Source: Nanobdellota archaeon (GTDB lineage: Archaea > Nanobdellota > Nanobdellia > SCGC-AAA011-G17 > GW2011-AR17). Taken from it: a stretch of 34,727 nucleotides of DNA. The stretch covers positions 1 to 34,727 of the forward strand of contig JAHJRD010000007.1 of the NCBI GenBank assembly GCA_018830945.1. The letters are read 5' to 3'. The notes below the pieces were generated by a model, which was given only the letters and a program-made list of their open reading frames with translations, had not been told where the DNA came from and did no database searches. Both the position numbers and the translations under genes were made by a program. Positions 4,373-12,293 of the stretch are shown piece after piece. Every line of letters starts with the position of its first letter. Position 1 is the stretch's first letter.

Positions 4373-5065
4373 ATGCGCAAGTCACTGCTTATTATTGTTT
4401 TGCTCCTGCTGTGCATTAACATTGCATATGCTGCAGAGCTTCACGGCACTATATATAATTCCCAGCTTGAGCTTCAAAAGGATGTTATTGTTGAAATCAA
4501 TACAGAGCCAAAGCAGTCAATTGTGTCAAAGGACGGCGCTTATTCATTCAATGTTCCTGAAGGCGAATATGCATTAAAGGCAGCGCATTATTACGGCAGT
4601 GAAATAGATTTGAAAGCTGAGGAAAGCGTATCTGTTTCAGCAGACGGCTCTTACACGCTTGATATTATATTGTTTGATGCGCTTGATGAGGAAGAAATGC
4701 TTGAAGATTTTGATTTTGCCTCTGGGCTTGAGGAAAATGGTTCTGTATGGTACTTGGGCGTTGCATTCCTTGCTGTTCTTTTTATTGCAATTATTCTTGC
4801 ATTGCACTTTGCAGGAAAAAAAGTGAAAAAAGTGCAGCAGCATATTGAGGATGCCATGAGATTGGGAAAAAATCCTGACAAGGATTTAGAAAAAATAATC
4901 CAGATAATAAAATCAGAAGGCGGCAGGACAACGCAGTTGGAGATAAGAAAGCACATTCCTCTTTCAGAGGCAAAAATCAGCTTGATGATAGCAGAGCTGG
5001 AGCACAAGGGGATTGTAAAAAAGATAAAAAAAGGCAGGGGGAATATTATAATTCTAAGCAAATAA
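4373..5065 (+). CDS. Membrane-bound winged-helix regulator with secreted beta domain
   Basis: The 230 residues show a signal peptide (1-20), an extracellular beta-rich domain (21-100, resembling carboxypeptidase-regulatory/transthyretin-like folds: GTIYNS...GAYSFNVPEGEYAL), an acidic linker, a transmembrane helix (about 126-147), and a cytoplasmic winged helix-turn-helix (about 165-230). Archaeal membrane-anchored HTH proteins of this architecture are known (COG2512-like), usually without characterised ligands. A TATA box near 4344-4350 lies about 26 bp from the ATG, so it is leaderless. The last 39 codons plus stop are duplicated downstream at 6429-6548. It would sense something outside and act on DNA directly at the membrane (inference). 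Confidence 0.85.
   Translation: MRKSLLIIVLLLLCINIAYAAELHGTIYNSQLELQKDVIVEINTEPKQSIVSKDGAYSFNVPEGEYALKAAHYYGSEIDLKAEESVSVSADGSYTLDIILFDALDEEEMLEDFDFASGLEENGSVWYLGVAFLAVLFIAIILALHFAGKKVKKVQQHIEDAMRLGKNPDKDLEKIIQIIKSEGGRTTQLEIRKHIPLSEAKISLMIAELEHKGIVKKIKKGRGNIIILSK
4946..5065 (+). repeat. Left copy of 120-bp direct repeat (3' end of regulator gene)
   Basis: It begins exactly at codon AGA (Arg192) of the regulator and ends with its TAA stop. The right copy at 6429-6548 aligns without gaps. Only three positions differ (AGG/AGA, ATA/ATT, TAA/TAG), all at third codon positions and all synonymous. Confidence 0.95.
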
Positions 5066-5121
5066 GTTCTTTATCCGGTTCGGGCTTCTTATTATAGCCT
5101 GCTGGGAATACACCAGTTTCA

Positions 5122-5175
5122 ATACTAATTGGTAATGCAAACATTTATATATCTATACTAATTGCTAATTAGTAT
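5122..5175 (+). promoter_or_regulatory. Promoter and putative operators of the ATPase gene
   Basis: The TATA box TTTATATAT (5144-5152) is centred 26 bp before the ATG at 5174. It is bracketed by two 15-bp direct repeats, 5122-5136 and 5155-5169, matching at 14 positions (ATACTAATTG-G/C-TAAT). The second is also the left part of a perfect inverted repeat, ATACTAATT-GCT-AATTAGTAT (5155-5175), which overlaps the start codon. A repressor bound there would block initiation; the repressor is unknown. Confidence 0.6.
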
Positions 5176-6427
5176 GATTTCGAAAGAAGACTTAAGAATG
5201 GTAGTAGCCAGGCAGAAGAAAGAGCTGTTTTCAAAGGAATCTTTTGTCAGGAGAGAACTGCTGGATGAGGTCTTAAAATGGTTTAAGGACAGGCGGGTTA
5301 TTATTCTTACAGGAATAAGGAGATGCGGGAAGTCCACCCTGCTTAAGGAGATTATGCAGAGCGTGCCCGGATGGTGCTATGCAAACTTTGAGGATGAAAA
5401 ATTCCTTGATTTTCAGGCGCAGGATTTTGAGCTGCTGAATGAAGTGCTTGTCGAAGCGTACGGCAATGTGGGCGCATATTTCTTTGATGAGATACAAAAC
5501 ATAGACAAATTTGAAACATTTGTCAGGCGGCTGCAGGATGAAGGAAAAAAAGTGGTGATTACAGGCTCTAATGCATCCCTGCTGAGCAAAGAGTTTGGCA
5601 CAAGGCTGACAGGCAGATACAAGCCGTTTGAAATTTACCCCTTTTCCTTCAGGGAATTTTTGGATTTTTACGGGGCAAAGGCGGAAAAAAATGACTTTTA
5701 CAGGGTTGAAAAAAAAGTTGGGCTGATTAAGATGTTCAATGAATATCTTGCATTGGGCGGAATGCCGGAATACCTTAAAAACAAGGATAAGGAATATATG
5801 CGGACACTTTATGAAAATATCCTCTATAAGGATGTTATAGTAAGATACTCTGTAAGAAAACAGAAAATAATAAAAGAGCTGGTAAGCTTGCTGGCATCGA
5901 ATATTTCCTGCCAGTTTACGTATAATTCCTTAAAAAACAGCCTGGGGCTTTCAAATGCCATAACGGTTAAGGAATATATCTCTTATTTAAGCAATTCCTA
6001 TTTGTTTTTTGAGCTGCGGAAATTTTCCTATTCAGTAAAACAGCAGCTGAATTCCCCAAGAAAAATTTATCTTATAGATTCCGCATTCAGCCAGGCCTGC
6101 GGGTTGAATTTTTCCGAGAATAGGGGCAGGATGCTGGAAAATGCTGTTTTTATAGAGCTGAAAAGAAAAAATAGAGAGGTTTACTATTATGCAGATAAAG
6201 GCGAATGCGATTTTATAATCAGGGAAGGGGCTAAAGCTGCAGAGGCAATTCAGGTTTGCCATGAATTGAACAAGGGCAACAGGGAGCGGGAAATAGCCGG
6301 TATTCTGGAGGCAATGGACAAATTTAAGCTGAAATGCGGCTTGATATTAACCAGTGAGCAGTCAGAAGAAATAATGGAAAATGGCAAAAAGATAATAGTG
6401 ATGCCTGTCTTCAAATGGCTTCTTTAA
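5174..6427 (+). CDS. DUF4143-family AAA ATPase (AAA_14 plus DUF4143)
   Basis: This is a 417-residue ATPase of the AAA_14/DUF4143 type common and patchily distributed in archaea and bacteria. Walker A is GIRRCGKST (47-55), Walker B YFFDE (102-106), and the sensor strand VITGSNASLL (128-137) is followed by the family's TRLTGRY. The C-terminal DUF4143 part (about 190-370) contains RGRMLENAVFIEL and, near 344-352, KGECDFII, the pattern likened in this family to a PD-(D/E)XK nuclease-like fold. I prefer ATG 5174 over a TTG at 5162 because of the TATA distance. The gene stands alone between two copies of the 3' end of the regulator gene, which marks it as an insertion. Cellular function of the family is not settled; selfish or mobile behaviour is inference from context. 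Confidence 0.9.
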   Translation: MISKEDLRMVVARQKKELFSKESFVRRELLDEVLKWFKDRRVIILTGIRRCGKSTLLKEIMQSVPGWCYANFEDEKFLDFQAQDFELLNEVLVEAYGNVGAYFFDEIQNIDKFETFVRRLQDEGKKVVITGSNASLLSKEFGTRLTGRYKPFEIYPFSFREFLDFYGAKAEKNDFYRVEKKVGLIKMFNEYLALGGMPEYLKNKDKEYMRTLYENILYKDVIVRYSVRKQKIIKELVSLLASNISCQFTYNSLKNSLGLSNAITVKEYISYLSNSYLFFELRKFSYSVKQQLNSPRKIYLIDSAFSQACGLNFSENRGRMLENAVFIELKRKNREVYYYADKGECDFIIREGAKAAEAIQVCHELNKGNREREIAGILEAMDKFKLKCGLILTSEQSEEIMENGKKIIVMPVFKWLL

Positions 6428-6428
6428 T

Positions 6429-6548
6429 AGAAAGCACATTCCTCTTTCAGAGGCAAAAATCAGCTTGATGATAGCAGAGCTGGAGCACAAGGGGATTGTA
6501 AAAAAGATAAAAAAAGGCAGAGGGAATATTATTATTCTAAGCAAATAG
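6429..6548 (+). pseudogene. Right copy of 120-bp repeat: 3' fragment of the regulator gene
   Basis: It encodes the last 39 residues of the winged-helix domain of 4373-5065, from Arg192 to the stop, with an identical amino-acid sequence. No start codon or upstream part is present, so as it stands it is a gene fragment beginning two bases after the ATPase stop codon. The identity at protein level despite three nucleotide differences suggests that both copies have been under coding selection. Confidence 0.93.
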
Positions 6549-6575
6549 CCCTTTTACCCATTCTTTGGTTCATAT

Positions 6576-8996
6576 TTACCTGCTGCCCAATAACTGCCTG
6601 ACTGGTTTGTTTGTGATGGCTTCCCTTTCTATGTTGAGCATTCCCAATATATTATCTTTTAAGATACCGGCATATAGCATTGTAGCATCCCACCATCCTT
6701 CTTTTGCACCAAGCTCTATTCCAAAGCTCGTCTGCCCTGCCGGCATTGTGCAGCGCTTTAATTCAGCATCACACGCATAATTCTCAGGGCACTCCTCATT
6801 ATTTTCGCAGGATACCCCTCTTACATCCCTGCACCTTCCTGCATCGCAGTAAAGCCCTGCAACGCACGGCTCTTCCTCAGAGCATGGCATCCTTCCAAGC
6901 CTTTTGCACTCAGGCTCATCCATGCTTAAGTCGCAGTACCTTCCTTCTGGGCAGTCCTCAATTGAATCGCATCCGGCTGCTGTCTTTGTGCCGAATACCT
7001 CTTCAAACTCTTCCCCTGAAACCTGCCTTGGGGTTGTTGAGATAATTGCGTGGCATTCATTCCACACATTCTCGCCAGAAAAGATATTTGTTGCTTTTCC
7101 TTCCTTGAAATAGCATGAGCCCAAGCTCTCGCACTCTTCCCTGTCGCATATATTGCCTGCGCCTTCGCCGCATCTCTCACACTTAAGTTCCATCTCCTGC
7201 GCTTCTTCTTCTATTGTCTTTGCGCCAAGCGCTTCCTCAGGAGTCACACAAACTCCCCTGTCGCAGATTTCTCCTCTCACGCAGTCTCTTGTATCTAAGC
7301 ATTCTGTTTCCTCTTCAACGCATATGCGCCTTAAGCATCTCTGCGCTGCATCGCAGTCCCTGTCTGAGCTGCAGCTTAAAGCAGAAACTGCCTTTGTCCC
7401 TTCCTCAAACCTTCTTTCTCTTGCAATGCCTATACCTTCTCTCAGCTTAGCTTCATTAAGCCCGGAAGATGAAATTACTATGGTGTTGCCAAGTTGACAT
7501 ATGCCGTCAGTGGTGCATGAAAGCATTTCAGCATCTCCCATTGCAGGGTTCAGGTTAACATTGAAATTAAACCCTAATTGCTGTATTGTCTTTCCCGGCG
7601 TCCATGTAAGCTCATTGTCTGCATACAATATCCACATATTATTGTTAGGGTTAGTAACTTTCACAGAGCCTTCCATTAGGCCATTTTCAAGTAGCGGAGT
7701 GATTGTCACAGTATTGTAGCCTGCCAAAAGTGTTACATCAAGCATGGAATCTACTGAATATATTTCCATCTCTTTGCTGCCGGGTTTTAGCAGAATGGAG
7801 TTGCTTGAAGTTGCATAATCAAAATTAATTAAGCCATAAGATTCTTCTGCGGATTCCGGAAACACGTAAACTTCGCTATTAGTTTCAGCAAGCTTGCTGC
7901 CGGCCGTAAAGACAGACACTTTTGCATTATTAGCGTCCGGATTTGGCGCCAGGGCTATCAGGAAAGGCTTGCCTTGTTTCAGCCGCTCCGGGCTTGCAAT
8001 AATTTTTACATCATCTTTGCCTGTTATCTCCACGCGCCCGTCAACTCCGCCGCTATAAAACACTTGGGGCTTGTAATTCTCTATAAAATCATTTATAACG
8101 ATTTCTTTGCCTGATTTAACCCTAAAAGAGTCGATTGAGCTTGCCTCTGCCCGGGCCTTTGCCTGCAGGTTAAGAGTGTCTGTGTTCCTCGGATTGGGAA
8201 GTATAACTTTTATCTCATTCAAATCAGCGAGCGGAATCGCGGCAAAATTATCTTCAGGCTGCAGCCCTGCTTTATCTCTCAGCTCTTCAATGTTATTGGG
8301 ATGCTCTGTTGCGTATGCTTCTGCCATATCATATGTTTCATCAACAGCTGATTCGCTGACAAAGCCCGAGCCTGCGATTGTAACATAGCCTTCTGCATCA
8401 TTTTCCTTATACAGCTGCCCTGACATTGCGCAGCTTAGCTGCCTCCCGCTTTCGTCCGTTTTAAGGCACCCGAAGAATATGTTTCCCATTTCATAAGCGC
8501 CATCGCTGGAAACCCTGAACATCGGCTTTGTCTTTTGCTGCGCGTCTTTTACAAACTGCAGTGTTATTGAATCCCCCATGATTGAAAGCGGGCTCAAAAC
8601 ACGCAGGTCTGTTGGGAATTCAAGAGGCATAAGCGAGCCGCCGGCAATGTCTATTTTATTAGTTGCAGTATTTGCCGTGGCAGTGCCGTATATTCTTGCG
8701 AATTCAATAAAGCTGCCTTCTGCAAAAGCAGGCCTGTAATCAAGCCTTACTGTCCCATCATCCATGCATTTGGCAAGCTCTGTATCTTCGGTTACAAGCG
8801 TTGAATCACTAAGAGAATACATTATTACATTCAGCTTTTCAGGATTGTATTTTGTTGTGTATTGCCCGCTGCACACAATATTGCCCTGCGCATCAGGGAT
8901 TGGATTTATTGAAGAGCCTGGTTCTACCTGATAAGCAGAAACAGCCATGGGCAGCATTAAAAGCACGAATGTAAAGCAGGGGATTATTTTTTTCAT
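6576..8996 (-). CDS. Large secreted Cys-rich protein
   Basis: The 806-residue protein starts at ATG 8996 with GGTGG (9001-9005) as ribosome site. A longer in-frame start at 9059 would lie at or upstream of the TATA region (AATATATATATAG, about 9032-9044, minus strand). A signal peptide (about 1-22, ending in VSA) is followed by about 500 beta-rich residues nearly free of cysteine. The C-terminal 270 residues are disulfide-rich: modules of the type C-x5-DC-x4-RC-x4-C near 540-590, a CxxC-containing segment near 600-650, and three further modules near 675-752 (EDCPEGRYCD, EEPCVAGLYCD, EECPENYACD). Such modules resemble small EGF/Dickkopf-like extracellular knots. No transmembrane helix is seen after the signal. 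Probably a surface or adhesion protein; the N-terminal domain is unrecognised. Confidence 0.88.
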   Translation of the reverse strand: MKKIIPCFTFVLLMLPMAVSAYQVEPGSSINPIPDAQGNIVCSGQYTTKYNPEKLNVIMYSLSDSTLVTEDTELAKCMDDGTVRLDYRPAFAEGSFIEFARIYGTATANTATNKIDIAGGSLMPLEFPTDLRVLSPLSIMGDSITLQFVKDAQQKTKPMFRVSSDGAYEMGNIFFGCLKTDESGRQLSCAMSGQLYKENDAEGYVTIAGSGFVSESAVDETYDMAEAYATEHPNNIEELRDKAGLQPEDNFAAIPLADLNEIKVILPNPRNTDTLNLQAKARAEASSIDSFRVKSGKEIVINDFIENYKPQVFYSGGVDGRVEITGKDDVKIIASPERLKQGKPFLIALAPNPDANNAKVSVFTAGSKLAETNSEVYVFPESAEESYGLINFDYATSSNSILLKPGSKEMEIYSVDSMLDVTLLAGYNTVTITPLLENGLMEGSVKVTNPNNNMWILYADNELTWTPGKTIQQLGFNFNVNLNPAMGDAEMLSCTTDGICQLGNTIVISSSGLNEAKLREGIGIARERRFEEGTKAVSALSCSSDRDCDAAQRCLRRICVEEETECLDTRDCVRGEICDRGVCVTPEEALGAKTIEEEAQEMELKCERCGEGAGNICDREECESLGSCYFKEGKATNIFSGENVWNECHAIISTTPRQVSGEEFEEVFGTKTAAGCDSIEDCPEGRYCDLSMDEPECKRLGRMPCSEEEPCVAGLYCDAGRCRDVRGVSCENNEECPENYACDAELKRCTMPAGQTSFGIELGAKEGWWDATMLYAGILKDNILGMLNIEREAITNKPVRQLLGSR

Positions 8997-9818: not shown

Positions 9819-12293
9819 ATGAGCACATCCATAAAACAATGTCCTGAGTGTAATTCTGTTAATCTTACTATACAACAGGACAAAGGCGAGATTATCTGCA
9901 GGAACTGCGGATTAGTCATAGAAGACAGGATGATTGATTTTGGCCAGGAATGGCGCGAGTTTGACCATGACCAGGCTTCCAAGAGAAGAAGGACAGGCGC
10001 TCCTATGACATACAGCGTGGATTATGCTGAGCCGATTATTGTGCAGGAAAACAAGAAGATAAAAGTTGTAAAAATAGGGGAATTCGTTGATAATATCCTT
10101 GAAAAAAGCAAAAATGCAAAGACAGACGGGCATGTGGAATATGCTAATATCAGCCGCGGCAAAAACGCAGTATGCTTTGACAAAAATTATAATATAAAAT
10201 TCAAGGGAATACAGGAGGTATCGCGGCACCCTGTTAAGGAGATGTATGATATAAGGCTTGAGCTTGGAAAAAGAGTTAAGGTTACAGGGGCGCACAGTGT
10301 TTTTTCTGTGGAAAATGGCGGGATTATCCCTACAAAAGTCAGCGGCCTGCAGGAAGGGCAGTTCATAGTGGCTCCTTTATACCTCCCTTCTGTTCTTCAT
10401 CCTGAAATGGAGCTTAAAATCCTTGAAGGGTTCTTTAACTTATCAGGAAAACATAAGAATATTTATTTAAGGGGAATAAAGGATAACTGGCTGTTTTTGA
10501 AGGCAAAGCAGGTTCTTCCGAGAATGGATGTTGATGCAAGGCAGATAAAGGACTGGAAAAGGCACAGCACAATGCCTCTCTGGGCGCTGCAGAATGTTTT
10601 GGATGTGTATGATGCAATGGAGTTTGATTTCAGCGGCTCAAGAATAGGGATTTACAGCGGGCCGAATGAGCTTCCGCTTTCCGTGTCTGTCACAGAAGGT
10701 TTTTGCAGGCTGCTTGGATATTACGCAAGCGAAGGCCACTGCACAGAGCATTCTGTTGTATTTTCTTTCGGCGCCCATGAAACAGCTTATATCGATGAAG
10801 TCAAGGGGCTTGCCAATGAAATCTTCAGCATGAAAGCAAAAGAATATCCCAAAGGCAGTGCGGTCCAGGTTGAGGTAAGAAGCAAATTGCTGAGCATGCT
10901 GTTCAGGGATGTGCTGAAGGCAGGAAGCTGCGCAAAGCAAAAAAGGGTGCCTGAATTGGTTTATTCGCTGCCTGAAAATATGAAAAGGGCTTTTCTTAAA
11001 GCCTATATTAATGGGGACGGGAGCTTATTTTATAAGGGGAATGCAGGCAACAGGCCGACTGTGCATGTTTCAACCTGCTCTGTAAGCCGGCAGCTGAGCA
11101 ATGATATTATAACTCTCTATCAGCAGATTGGCATTCAGGCAGGATATACAGAGGCGATTATTCCTGGGCATACTTTGGAAAGCACAGGCCAGGAAATAAG
11201 GGAAAGCCTTATGACACAAACACAAATTGCTGATCCTGAATCTGCCTTAAATCTCGGGCTTATAGACTCTCTGCCAATAAGCAAAGGCAAGGGAAGCATA
11301 GGCTCGCTTGTGCCTGCGCCTGAAAAATATTTCAGGGAACTGGGGTACAGGAAAAATGCAAGGATAAGCAGAGAAAGGGCAATTGAGCTATCAAGGAAGC
11401 ATAATGATGCTGATTTGTTTAGGCTTGCAGAGGCCCCTTTTATATATCTTAAGATAACAAGCATAACAAAAGTAAAGCCCACAAATAAATATGCTTATGA
11501 CATTTCTGTGCCTGGGGAAGAGAACTTTGTCGGCGGCAGAGGCGGAATATTCTTGCATAATACTAAATATGACAGGGGATTAGGCACAGACGTTGGCCAG
11601 AAAGGCGATATTTACAGATTAGGCATGAAAGGCAAGAACAAGTTCTTCAGGCTGAGAAAATGGCAGTACAGGATAAGCACTGCAATCGAGAGAAATTTAA
11701 AGCTTGCTCTTGCTGAATTAAAAAGAGTTGCATCTTTCTTAAAATTGCCAAAGTCAGTTGAAGAGGAATCAGCGAGGATTTACACAATGGCTGTCCAGAG
11801 AGGGTTAGTAAGGGGAAGGAGCATGGAGTCTGTTGTTGCAGGCGCATTGTATGCAGCATGCAGAAGGCATGAGGTGCCAAGAACTCTTGATGAACTAGAG
11901 GAAGCTTCCGGCATTGACAAGAAAGAGATTGGAAGGACATACAGGTTTGTTACAAGAGAATTAGGAATAAGGATTTTGCCGAGCAATCCTGTTGATTACA
12001 TACCAAGGTTTGCTTCTGCATTGAAGTTATCTGCTGAAACTCAGAGCAAGGCTGTTGAATTATTGGAAATGGCGCAGCAGTCTGAATTAACTTCAGGAAG
12101 AGGCCCTACTGGAATAGCAGCTGCCTCATTGTACGTTGCCGCGCTCTTGAATAATGAAAAAAGGACTCAGCGTGAGGTTGCGGACATTGCAGGCGTCACA
12201 GAAGTCACGATAAGGAATAGGTATAAGGAATTGCTTAAGAAGCTGAAATTCAAGGATAGTGTAAGAAAGAAATTAAACGAGATGGCAAGGTAG
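9819..12293 (+). CDS. tfb: Transcription initiation factor TFB precursor, intein-containing
   Basis: The 824-residue precursor splices in silico to a normal 308-residue TFB. The N-extein (1-65) has the zinc ribbon (C8, C11, C27, C30) and the B-reader/linker motif KRRRTGAPMTY. The C-extein (582-824) resumes with TKYDRGLGT and holds two cyclin-like core repeats ending in the DNA-binding HTH (REVADIAGVTEVTIRNRY). TFB binds TBP-TATA and BRE DNA and recruits RNA polymerase. The start is fixed by a strong ribosome site AAGGAGG at 9806-9812, six bases before ATG. The gene has an unusually long leader for this genome and lies divergent to MBF1. A short G/C-rich stretch and T6 follow the stop. Since the host depends on TFB, splicing must be efficient. 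Confidence 0.97.
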   Translation: MSTSIKQCPECNSVNLTIQQDKGEIICRNCGLVIEDRMIDFGQEWREFDHDQASKRRRTGAPMTYSVDYAEPIIVQENKKIKVVKIGEFVDNILEKSKNAKTDGHVEYANISRGKNAVCFDKNYNIKFKGIQEVSRHPVKEMYDIRLELGKRVKVTGAHSVFSVENGGIIPTKVSGLQEGQFIVAPLYLPSVLHPEMELKILEGFFNLSGKHKNIYLRGIKDNWLFLKAKQVLPRMDVDARQIKDWKRHSTMPLWALQNVLDVYDAMEFDFSGSRIGIYSGPNELPLSVSVTEGFCRLLGYYASEGHCTEHSVVFSFGAHETAYIDEVKGLANEIFSMKAKEYPKGSAVQVEVRSKLLSMLFRDVLKAGSCAKQKRVPELVYSLPENMKRAFLKAYINGDGSLFYKGNAGNRPTVHVSTCSVSRQLSNDIITLYQQIGIQAGYTEAIIPGHTLESTGQEIRESLMTQTQIADPESALNLGLIDSLPISKGKGSIGSLVPAPEKYFRELGYRKNARISRERAIELSRKHNDADLFRLAEAPFIYLKITSITKVKPTNKYAYDISVPGEENFVGGRGGIFLHNTKYDRGLGTDVGQKGDIYRLGMKGKNKFFRLRKWQYRISTAIERNLKLALAELKRVASFLKLPKSVEEESARIYTMAVQRGLVRGRSMESVVAGALYAACRRHEVPRTLDELEEASGIDKKEIGRTYRFVTRELGIRILPSNPVDYIPRFASALKLSAETQSKAVELLEMAQQSELTSGRGPTGIAAASLYVAALLNNEKRTQREVADIAGVTEVTIRNRYKELLKKLKFKDSVRKKLNEMAR
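10014..11561 (+). other. Intein with LAGLIDADG homing endonuclease in TFB
   Basis: The intein is precursor residues 66-581 (516 residues). It begins with Ser (SVDYAEPI) and ends FLHN, with Thr as the first C-extein residue, all acceptable splicing chemistry. Block B TxxH is T156-G-A-H159. The C-terminal block is ENFVGGRGGIFLHN. Two LAGLIDADG-type motifs, LLGYYASEG (298-306) and FLKAYINGDG (392-401), supply acidic residues E305 and D400, so the endonuclease may be active. It splits the conserved MTY/TKYDRG segment. An intein in TFB is known from Methanocaldococcus jannaschii (InBase 'Mja TFIIB'); whether the insertion site is identical needs alignment. Confidence 0.95.

Follow-up and report, generated by a model that had tools for sequence, protein, structure and literature searches.

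The window, a stretch of 34,727 nucleotides that is one whole contig of the Nanobdellota genome G000, contains an intact gene for a membrane-anchored regulator, a single ATPase gene behind it, and then a second copy of the regulator's 3′ end (Table 1). The first-pass annotation had reported that the last 39 codons and stop of the regulator recur after the ATPase gene, and this holds on alignment (117/119 identical by blastn; 120 bp, 97.5% identity, 206 bits). The left copy begins precisely at a codon boundary within the C-terminal winged-helix domain (codon 192), as had been described, and the right copy begins 2 bp past the ATPase stop. The three base differences between the copies (AGG/AGA, ATA/ATT and TAA/TAG) are all synonymous, again in line with the initial description, and identity drops at the stop codon. 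Since none of 5,852 cross-locus flank comparisons reached 35 bits, a repeat of 206 bits is not a chance match. The left regulator is the only full one in the window genome. The linker that separates the regulator stop from the conserved leader may derive from the element or from a diverged 3′ UTR of the target; homology of this 55-bp segment to the right-hand UTR was not used as evidence, as about 4–5% of controls score as well. Elsewhere in the window a TFIIB-type transcription factor gene (9819-12293, + strand) contains an intein with a LAGLIDADG-like domain that is absent from the G001 and G003 orthologues.

Table 1. Features of the regulator–ATPase locus (window coordinates).
Feature	Position	Strand	Remarks
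Target gene, membrane-anchored regulator, 230 aa, intact	4373-5065	+	C-terminal DUF7343 winged helix; insertion-free orthologues in G001-G003
Left, in-frame repeat copy (the regulator's final 39 codons and stop)	4946-5065	+	Two silent sites derived relative to orthologues
Linker, regulator stop to conserved leader	5066-5121	.	Not common to the G003 orthologous element; resemblance to 6549-6608 weak
Conserved leader, left end of the shared unit	5122-5173	+	Also in G003, L081, L082 and L084
AAA_14-DUF4143 ATPase, 417 aa, only gene of the unit	5174-6427	+	PADLOC PDC-S01; model pLDDT 91
ATPase C-terminal PD-(D/E)XK-like domain	6122-6424	+	Best matches McrC, archaeal Hjc/Hje
Right repeat copy, displaced regulator 3′ end, joined to no gene	6429-6548	+	Ancestral codons AGA, ATT

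The window protein matches Pfam AAA_14 (PF13173, 1.5e-34) and DUF4143 (PF13635, 9e-22) and aligns over the full length of the PADLOC PDC-S01 profile (3.9e-113), making it a member of the group defined by these domains. In the high-confidence structural model the N-terminal part resembles AAA+ ATPases (structure matches to an archaeal Walker ATPase, RuvB, Cdc6/Orc1 and TnsC/MuB), while the best PDB matches of the C-terminal domain (McrC, Can2, DdmD, Hje/Hjc and EcoT38I) have the PD-(D/E)XK fold; none of the solved structures comes from a close sequence relative. The nuclease-like C-terminus proposed on first reading is thus borne out in its fold, but the canonical catalytic lysine is missing. 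Conservation is complete at Q360 and nearly so at D346, with E344 likewise invariant or almost invariant, and the set departs from the canonical D..(D/E)xK in that Q360 stands in place of D/E and C, T, A or S in place of K (QVC in place of ExK). The model thus depicts an AAA+ ATPase whose C-terminal PD-(D/E)XK fold is McrC/Hjc-like and whose motif is non-canonical.

The regulator locus is uninterrupted in three genomes of the same genus (G001, G002 and G003), where the regulator is 60–70% identical, the next genes follow directly and no ATPase is present at the locus. The presence of the regulator without the ATPase in all three identifies the ATPase as an insertion, and the empty sites agree with the earlier proposal that a cassette integrated at the regulator. 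Four other sites likewise have empty counterparts. A single genome has the insertion at each of them, while 6 relatives lack it at the GlyRS (glycyl-tRNA synthetase) site, 4 at the MoeB site, 22 at the enolase site and 25 at the FAD-enzyme site. One further locus (L115) was set aside as an empty-site case, its upstream region not being alignable.

The same footprint is found at other, unrelated positions. The window ATPase has its closest orthologue (73%) in G003, behind the GlyRS gene, whose 3′ end is repeated after the ATPase (59-bp repeat). In G002 a MoeB/ThiF-like gene has two ATPases behind its 3′ end, with a further copy of that end at each step; this is serial insertion at one site. The target in a chlamydial genome is enolase, and further targets include an ABC transporter gene (named by its sequence), a dockerin protein gene, a tRNA end, the 5′ end of a glycosyltransferase gene and intergenic DNA. 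Repeats range from about 30 to 300 bp, no more than 28 bp separate the ATPase stop from the right target copy in 14/16 cases, and the orientation of the ATPase relative to the target gene varies. The first-pass proposal that the 3′ end of a protein gene is the target accordingly does not hold for every insertion, as 5′ ends, a tRNA end and intergenic DNA are hit as well; with target types and orientations this varied, there is no dedicated 3′-end attachment site.

Comparison of close ATPase pairs at different sites defines the extent of the mobile unit. Methanoregula ATPases that are 79–90% identical and lie at different loci share DNA only from about −45 to −70 to the stop codon, and the DNA shared between the window and G003 is likewise confined to the leader and the ORF, so that the unit comprises about 1.3 kb. 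In the window it runs from 5122 to 6427 and contains, as had been anticipated, the DUF4143 ATPase as its only candidate mobility gene and sole cargo. The leader carries an operator-like sequence (TACTAATTGGTAATG), a TATA-like sequence (TTTATATA) and a palindrome adjoining the start codon (ACTAATTGCTAATTAGT). Motifs of the ATTACTAA/TTAGTAAT type are found in 20/78 leaders versus 1.1 expected, with the TTAGTAAT-type motif repeated within the leader. No terminal inverted repeats flank the window unit, and no right-end motif is shared among units. With the ATPase as the only cargo, and related ATPases at unrelated sites with the same type of repeat, the locus is best interpreted as a minimal mobile unit.

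Flanking repeats are enriched at these genes. A scan of public genomes yielded 80 relatives of the ATPase, and a direct repeat of at least 35 bits spans the ATPase in 19/77 relatives, versus 0/5,852 mismatched flank pairs. The search for DUF4143 genes flanked by direct repeats, which the first-pass annotation had suggested, is thus positive, with unrelated target genes in both archaea and bacteria. Against control ORFs from the same loci (at least 2–2.5 kb from the ATPase, with equal flanks), repeats were found at 10/60 ATPases and 2/83 controls in a first survey, at 6/42 and 3/44 in a second that alone is not significant (p = 0.22), and at 6/19 and 3/121 in a third. Pooled, direct repeats flank 22/121 DUF4143 ATPases versus 8/248 control genes (p = 2e-6); the 8 control hits include a gene that is itself, judged by sequence, a DUF4143-type ATPase, and another hit comes from a duplicated tRNA end next to a different gene. 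About 80% of the DUF4143 genes have no detectable flanking repeat. Strong repeats occur at 12/30 Methanoregula ATPases, but several of these repeats belong to dispersed intergenic families (L299 and L306, and L300 by orthologous site). For this reason all of Methanoregula was left out of the pooled figure, and of its repeats only that of L321 was used as evidence. These families, about 230–330 bp in length and often beside DUF4143 genes, could possibly be non-autonomous relatives or preferred targets.

Several related arrangements were seen in passing. In contig C98 of the window's own genome (L008:2997-10690) and in contig C158 of G002 (L079:1446-8928) a small gene for a secreted or surface-like protein (protein terminus ..RYCWCGRA or ..CFCGSA) has its 3′ end recurring several times between unrelated cargo that includes DUF4143 ATPases, AbiEi/AbiEii-like and HEPN-like genes, an ATPase_2 gene, and radical SAM with GNAT genes; these arrays resemble serial insertions at one gene end. 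The radical SAM and GNAT cassette of C98 lies between repeated gene ends with no DUF4143 gene, so the process may not need the ATPase. Some genomes are rich in DUF4143 genes (L225-L263; G109, G111 and G100), with 27 in one Bacteroidetes MAG, 23 in a rumen Bacteroidales MAG and 16 in a chlamydial MAG. One locus of G109 (C124; L228:427-1680, + strand) has a DUF4143-type ATPase of the other subfamily, with an EVK motif, between direct repeats of 63 bp (97%). In one locus of G111 (C24; L249:975-1862, − strand) a BRO/DinD-like gene has a tRNA-Thr-like end on one side and a decayed copy of that end on the other, an arrangement expected of a small integrated element. Many Acinetobacter plasmids carry a nearly fixed DUF4143-type ATPase gene upstream of BREX; flanking repeats are absent at the two plasmid loci examined (L289 and L290), and we treat the plasmids as uninformative (173 records with the ATPase, most listed places being beside BREX).

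The origin of the second gene-end copy is read differently from one locus to another. At L321 (Methanoregula) the two copies are 95.6% alike versus 82–83% to the nearest empty allele; they share lineage-specific bases, which shows that the copy was made from the target and that the spare, which took replacement changes, then drifted. The GlyRS and enolase fragments are likewise the copies with the replacement changes, the enolase fragment having lost the invariant histidine of SHRSGE. Across 11 coding repeat pairs, however, 48 of the codon differences are silent and 30 are replacements, a silent share of 62% versus 36% predicted for a neutral fragment and 59% expected if both copies evolve at omega 0.2; none of 300 simulations, which assume equal time and one mutation model, reached 62%. 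The L076 and L104 fragments are coding-like when polarised, with the changes on the L076 fragment branch mostly silent, and stop codons are retained even where altered (TAA/TAG, TAG/TGA), identity ending at the stop. When the two copies in the window are polarised by orthologues the fragment is ancestral and the in-frame copy has changed at two silent sites, a pattern that fits both a copy made from the target and an end supplied by a donor. The restoring copy that the cassette was supposed to carry thus finds some backing in the mostly silent differences of the 11 pairs, but at L321 the copy was made from the target; similarly, the coding selection proposed for it accords with the aggregate silent share and not with the replacement changes in the L321, GlyRS and enolase fragments. 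In our reading the target was probably duplicated when the element inserted, and many of the spare copies were later exchanged with element-free alleles; a gene end brought from a donor is the less likely alternative.

Taken together, we consider 5122-6427 to be probably (at roughly 0.6) a minimal one-gene mobile element that inserted in the regulator 3′ end and that makes long target duplications. The sequences show the insertion itself, the mobility of leader plus ORF as a unit and the excess of long flanking repeats over other genes; the mechanism and an active part of the ATPase are inferred. Insertion would duplicate some 30–300 bp of target, either because the target is opened at two distant points and then filled in, or because the element is copied in by recombination or repair. 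An overlapped gene would keep one complete copy after such a duplication, allowing insertions to survive at gene ends (3′ or 5′), at tRNA ends and in intergenic DNA. The AAA+ ATPase with its McrC/Hjc-like domain would bind the leader, which looks self-regulated, and drive or guide the movement, perhaps assisted by host recombination enzymes. The spare copy would later drift or swap with element-free alleles by homologous recombination, and such exchange could account for the many spare copies that are still coding-like. The aggregate silent share counts against this reading in its simplest form, being too high for neutral drift after duplication. Also against it are the large majority of DUF4143 genes with no detectable repeat, the lack of terminal inverted repeats and of a common right-end motif, the non-significant second survey, the non-canonical nuclease motif, the C98 cassette that has no DUF4143 gene, and the metagenome origin of most loci. 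Extending it to DUF4143/PDC-S01 genes in general, as autonomous single-gene transposable elements that use a new AAA+/PD-(D/E)XK mechanism with no known recombinase, make long target duplications and are harmless at gene ends, is a tentative step to which we give somewhat less than even odds.

Two other explanations of the repeats deserve weight, although we regard both as rather unlikely. In the model favoured by the first-pass annotation, a gene end from the donor lineage is spliced onto the target and the native end is displaced, as with e14 in icd and the fungal homing ORFs. The excess of silent differences over the neutral prediction, the preservation of stops, the L076 fragment branch and the fact that the derived copy in the window is the in-frame one are all expected from such a hybrid gene. 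Related ATPases (60–73%) have unrelated targets, however, so that in most cases the element would have to acquire the copy as it inserts; the replacement changes sit in the fragments at L321, GlyRS and enolase, and the intergenic and 5′-end repeats fit this model poorly. Alternatively, the ATPase could be a defence or accessory gene whose protein is idle in the process and which is moved when gene ends recombine by general homologous or illegitimate means, through natural transformation or virus- or plasmid-borne circles, with the repeats as marks of single-crossover insertion. The listing of the ATPase by PADLOC as a defence candidate, the other cargo between repeated gene ends in the C98 and C158 arrays, and the Acinetobacter plasmids that keep the ATPase beside BREX without repeats would agree with this passive route, to which we assign a low probability; against it are the enrichment over other ORFs of the same neighbourhoods, the trimming of the unit to leader and ORF at different sites, and the conservation of the leader motif.

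Two simpler accounts have very little left to recommend them. A tandem regulator paralogue that lost its 5′ part, with the ATPase lying between by accident, would explain a coding and nearly identical fragment and nothing more; each of G001-G003 has a single full regulator, which makes a lost paralogue unlikely, the three nearest genomes have uninterrupted single-copy loci with no same-genus relative having two regulators, and the pattern recurs with unrelated genes. On these grounds we reject a full paralogue as the source of the right copy, the case that had been named as fatal to the original proposal. An assembly artefact or a chance link with dispersed repeats might be suspected from the MAG contigs and from the dispersed families that flank several Methanoregula ATPases, but is scarcely credible given the many independent assemblies, including contigs of 2.9–3.2 Mb (L308 and L309), and the involvement of the single-copy genes GlyRS, enolase and MoeB.

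In anatomy the locus is closest to the mobile endonuclease ORFs (mORFs) of fungal mitochondria and to prophage e14 in icd. The fungal mORFs, found in Glomus atp6, atp9, cox2 and nad3 and in Allomyces atp6, have the same order of gene core, kept end, one mobile ORF and displaced end, with largely silent differences and an insertion that is missing in close relatives (PMC3630166). They differ in being mitochondrial, in encoding LAGLIDADG or GIY-YIG enzymes and in bringing a clearly foreign gene end, whereas the window ORF encodes an AAA+ ATPase whose C-terminal domain is PD-(D/E)XK-like and in which a profile search found no homing-endonuclease domain (LAGLIDADG or GIY-YIG), and units of its kind occur in archaea and bacteria and also at 5′ ends, tRNA ends and intergenic sites. 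Integration at gene 3′ ends is shared with e14, which left a 165-bp duplicated end with 12 mostly silent changes in E. coli icd (PMC11148124), and with archaeal integrated elements, 14/68 of the thaumarchaeal ones sitting in protein-gene 3′ ends with serial insertion at one site (PMC6563490). All of these are large elements with a tyrosine recombinase gene or, in the casposons, with Cas1 and terminal inverted repeats; the window unit has neither casposon hallmark and no tyrosine or serine recombinase, its single ORF being the ATPase, although direct repeats at both ends and an empty site in relatives are features that it has in common with recombinase-driven integrative elements. IS/DDE transposons have terminal inverted repeats and short duplications of fixed length, unlike the repeats of ~30–300 bp seen here. 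A minimal integrating element, as suggested earlier, is the most likely reading of the leader and ORF found at unrelated sites; the restoration of gene ends by integrating DNA is already known from e14 (PMC11148124) and the fungal mORFs (PMC3630166).

PDC-S01, a fusion of an ATPase and a PD-(D/E)XK-type domain that was found by guilt-by-embedding, is reported as the fourth most common ‘defence’ system in prokaryotes, with some 10,000 loci in archaea and 29,000 in bacteria and a defence role not yet validated (PMC12988326). In a rumen survey no other single locus was as frequent (PMC13356809). In the literature on DUF4143, PF13635 and AAA_14 we found no source that treats the gene as mobile or notes flanking target duplications. 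On its sequence features, the unit described here resembles a tiny mobile element, and we found no description of such a kind. If this is correct, it would be a compact element (about 1.3 kb) that leaves its target genes unbroken, and the way in which a nuclease-like tail on an AAA+ ATPase could help to move DNA would become testable. PDC-S01 is counted as a defence system by where its genes sit; if these genes are self-mobile, their location in accessory islands may reflect movement and not defence, and the defence counts would need revision.
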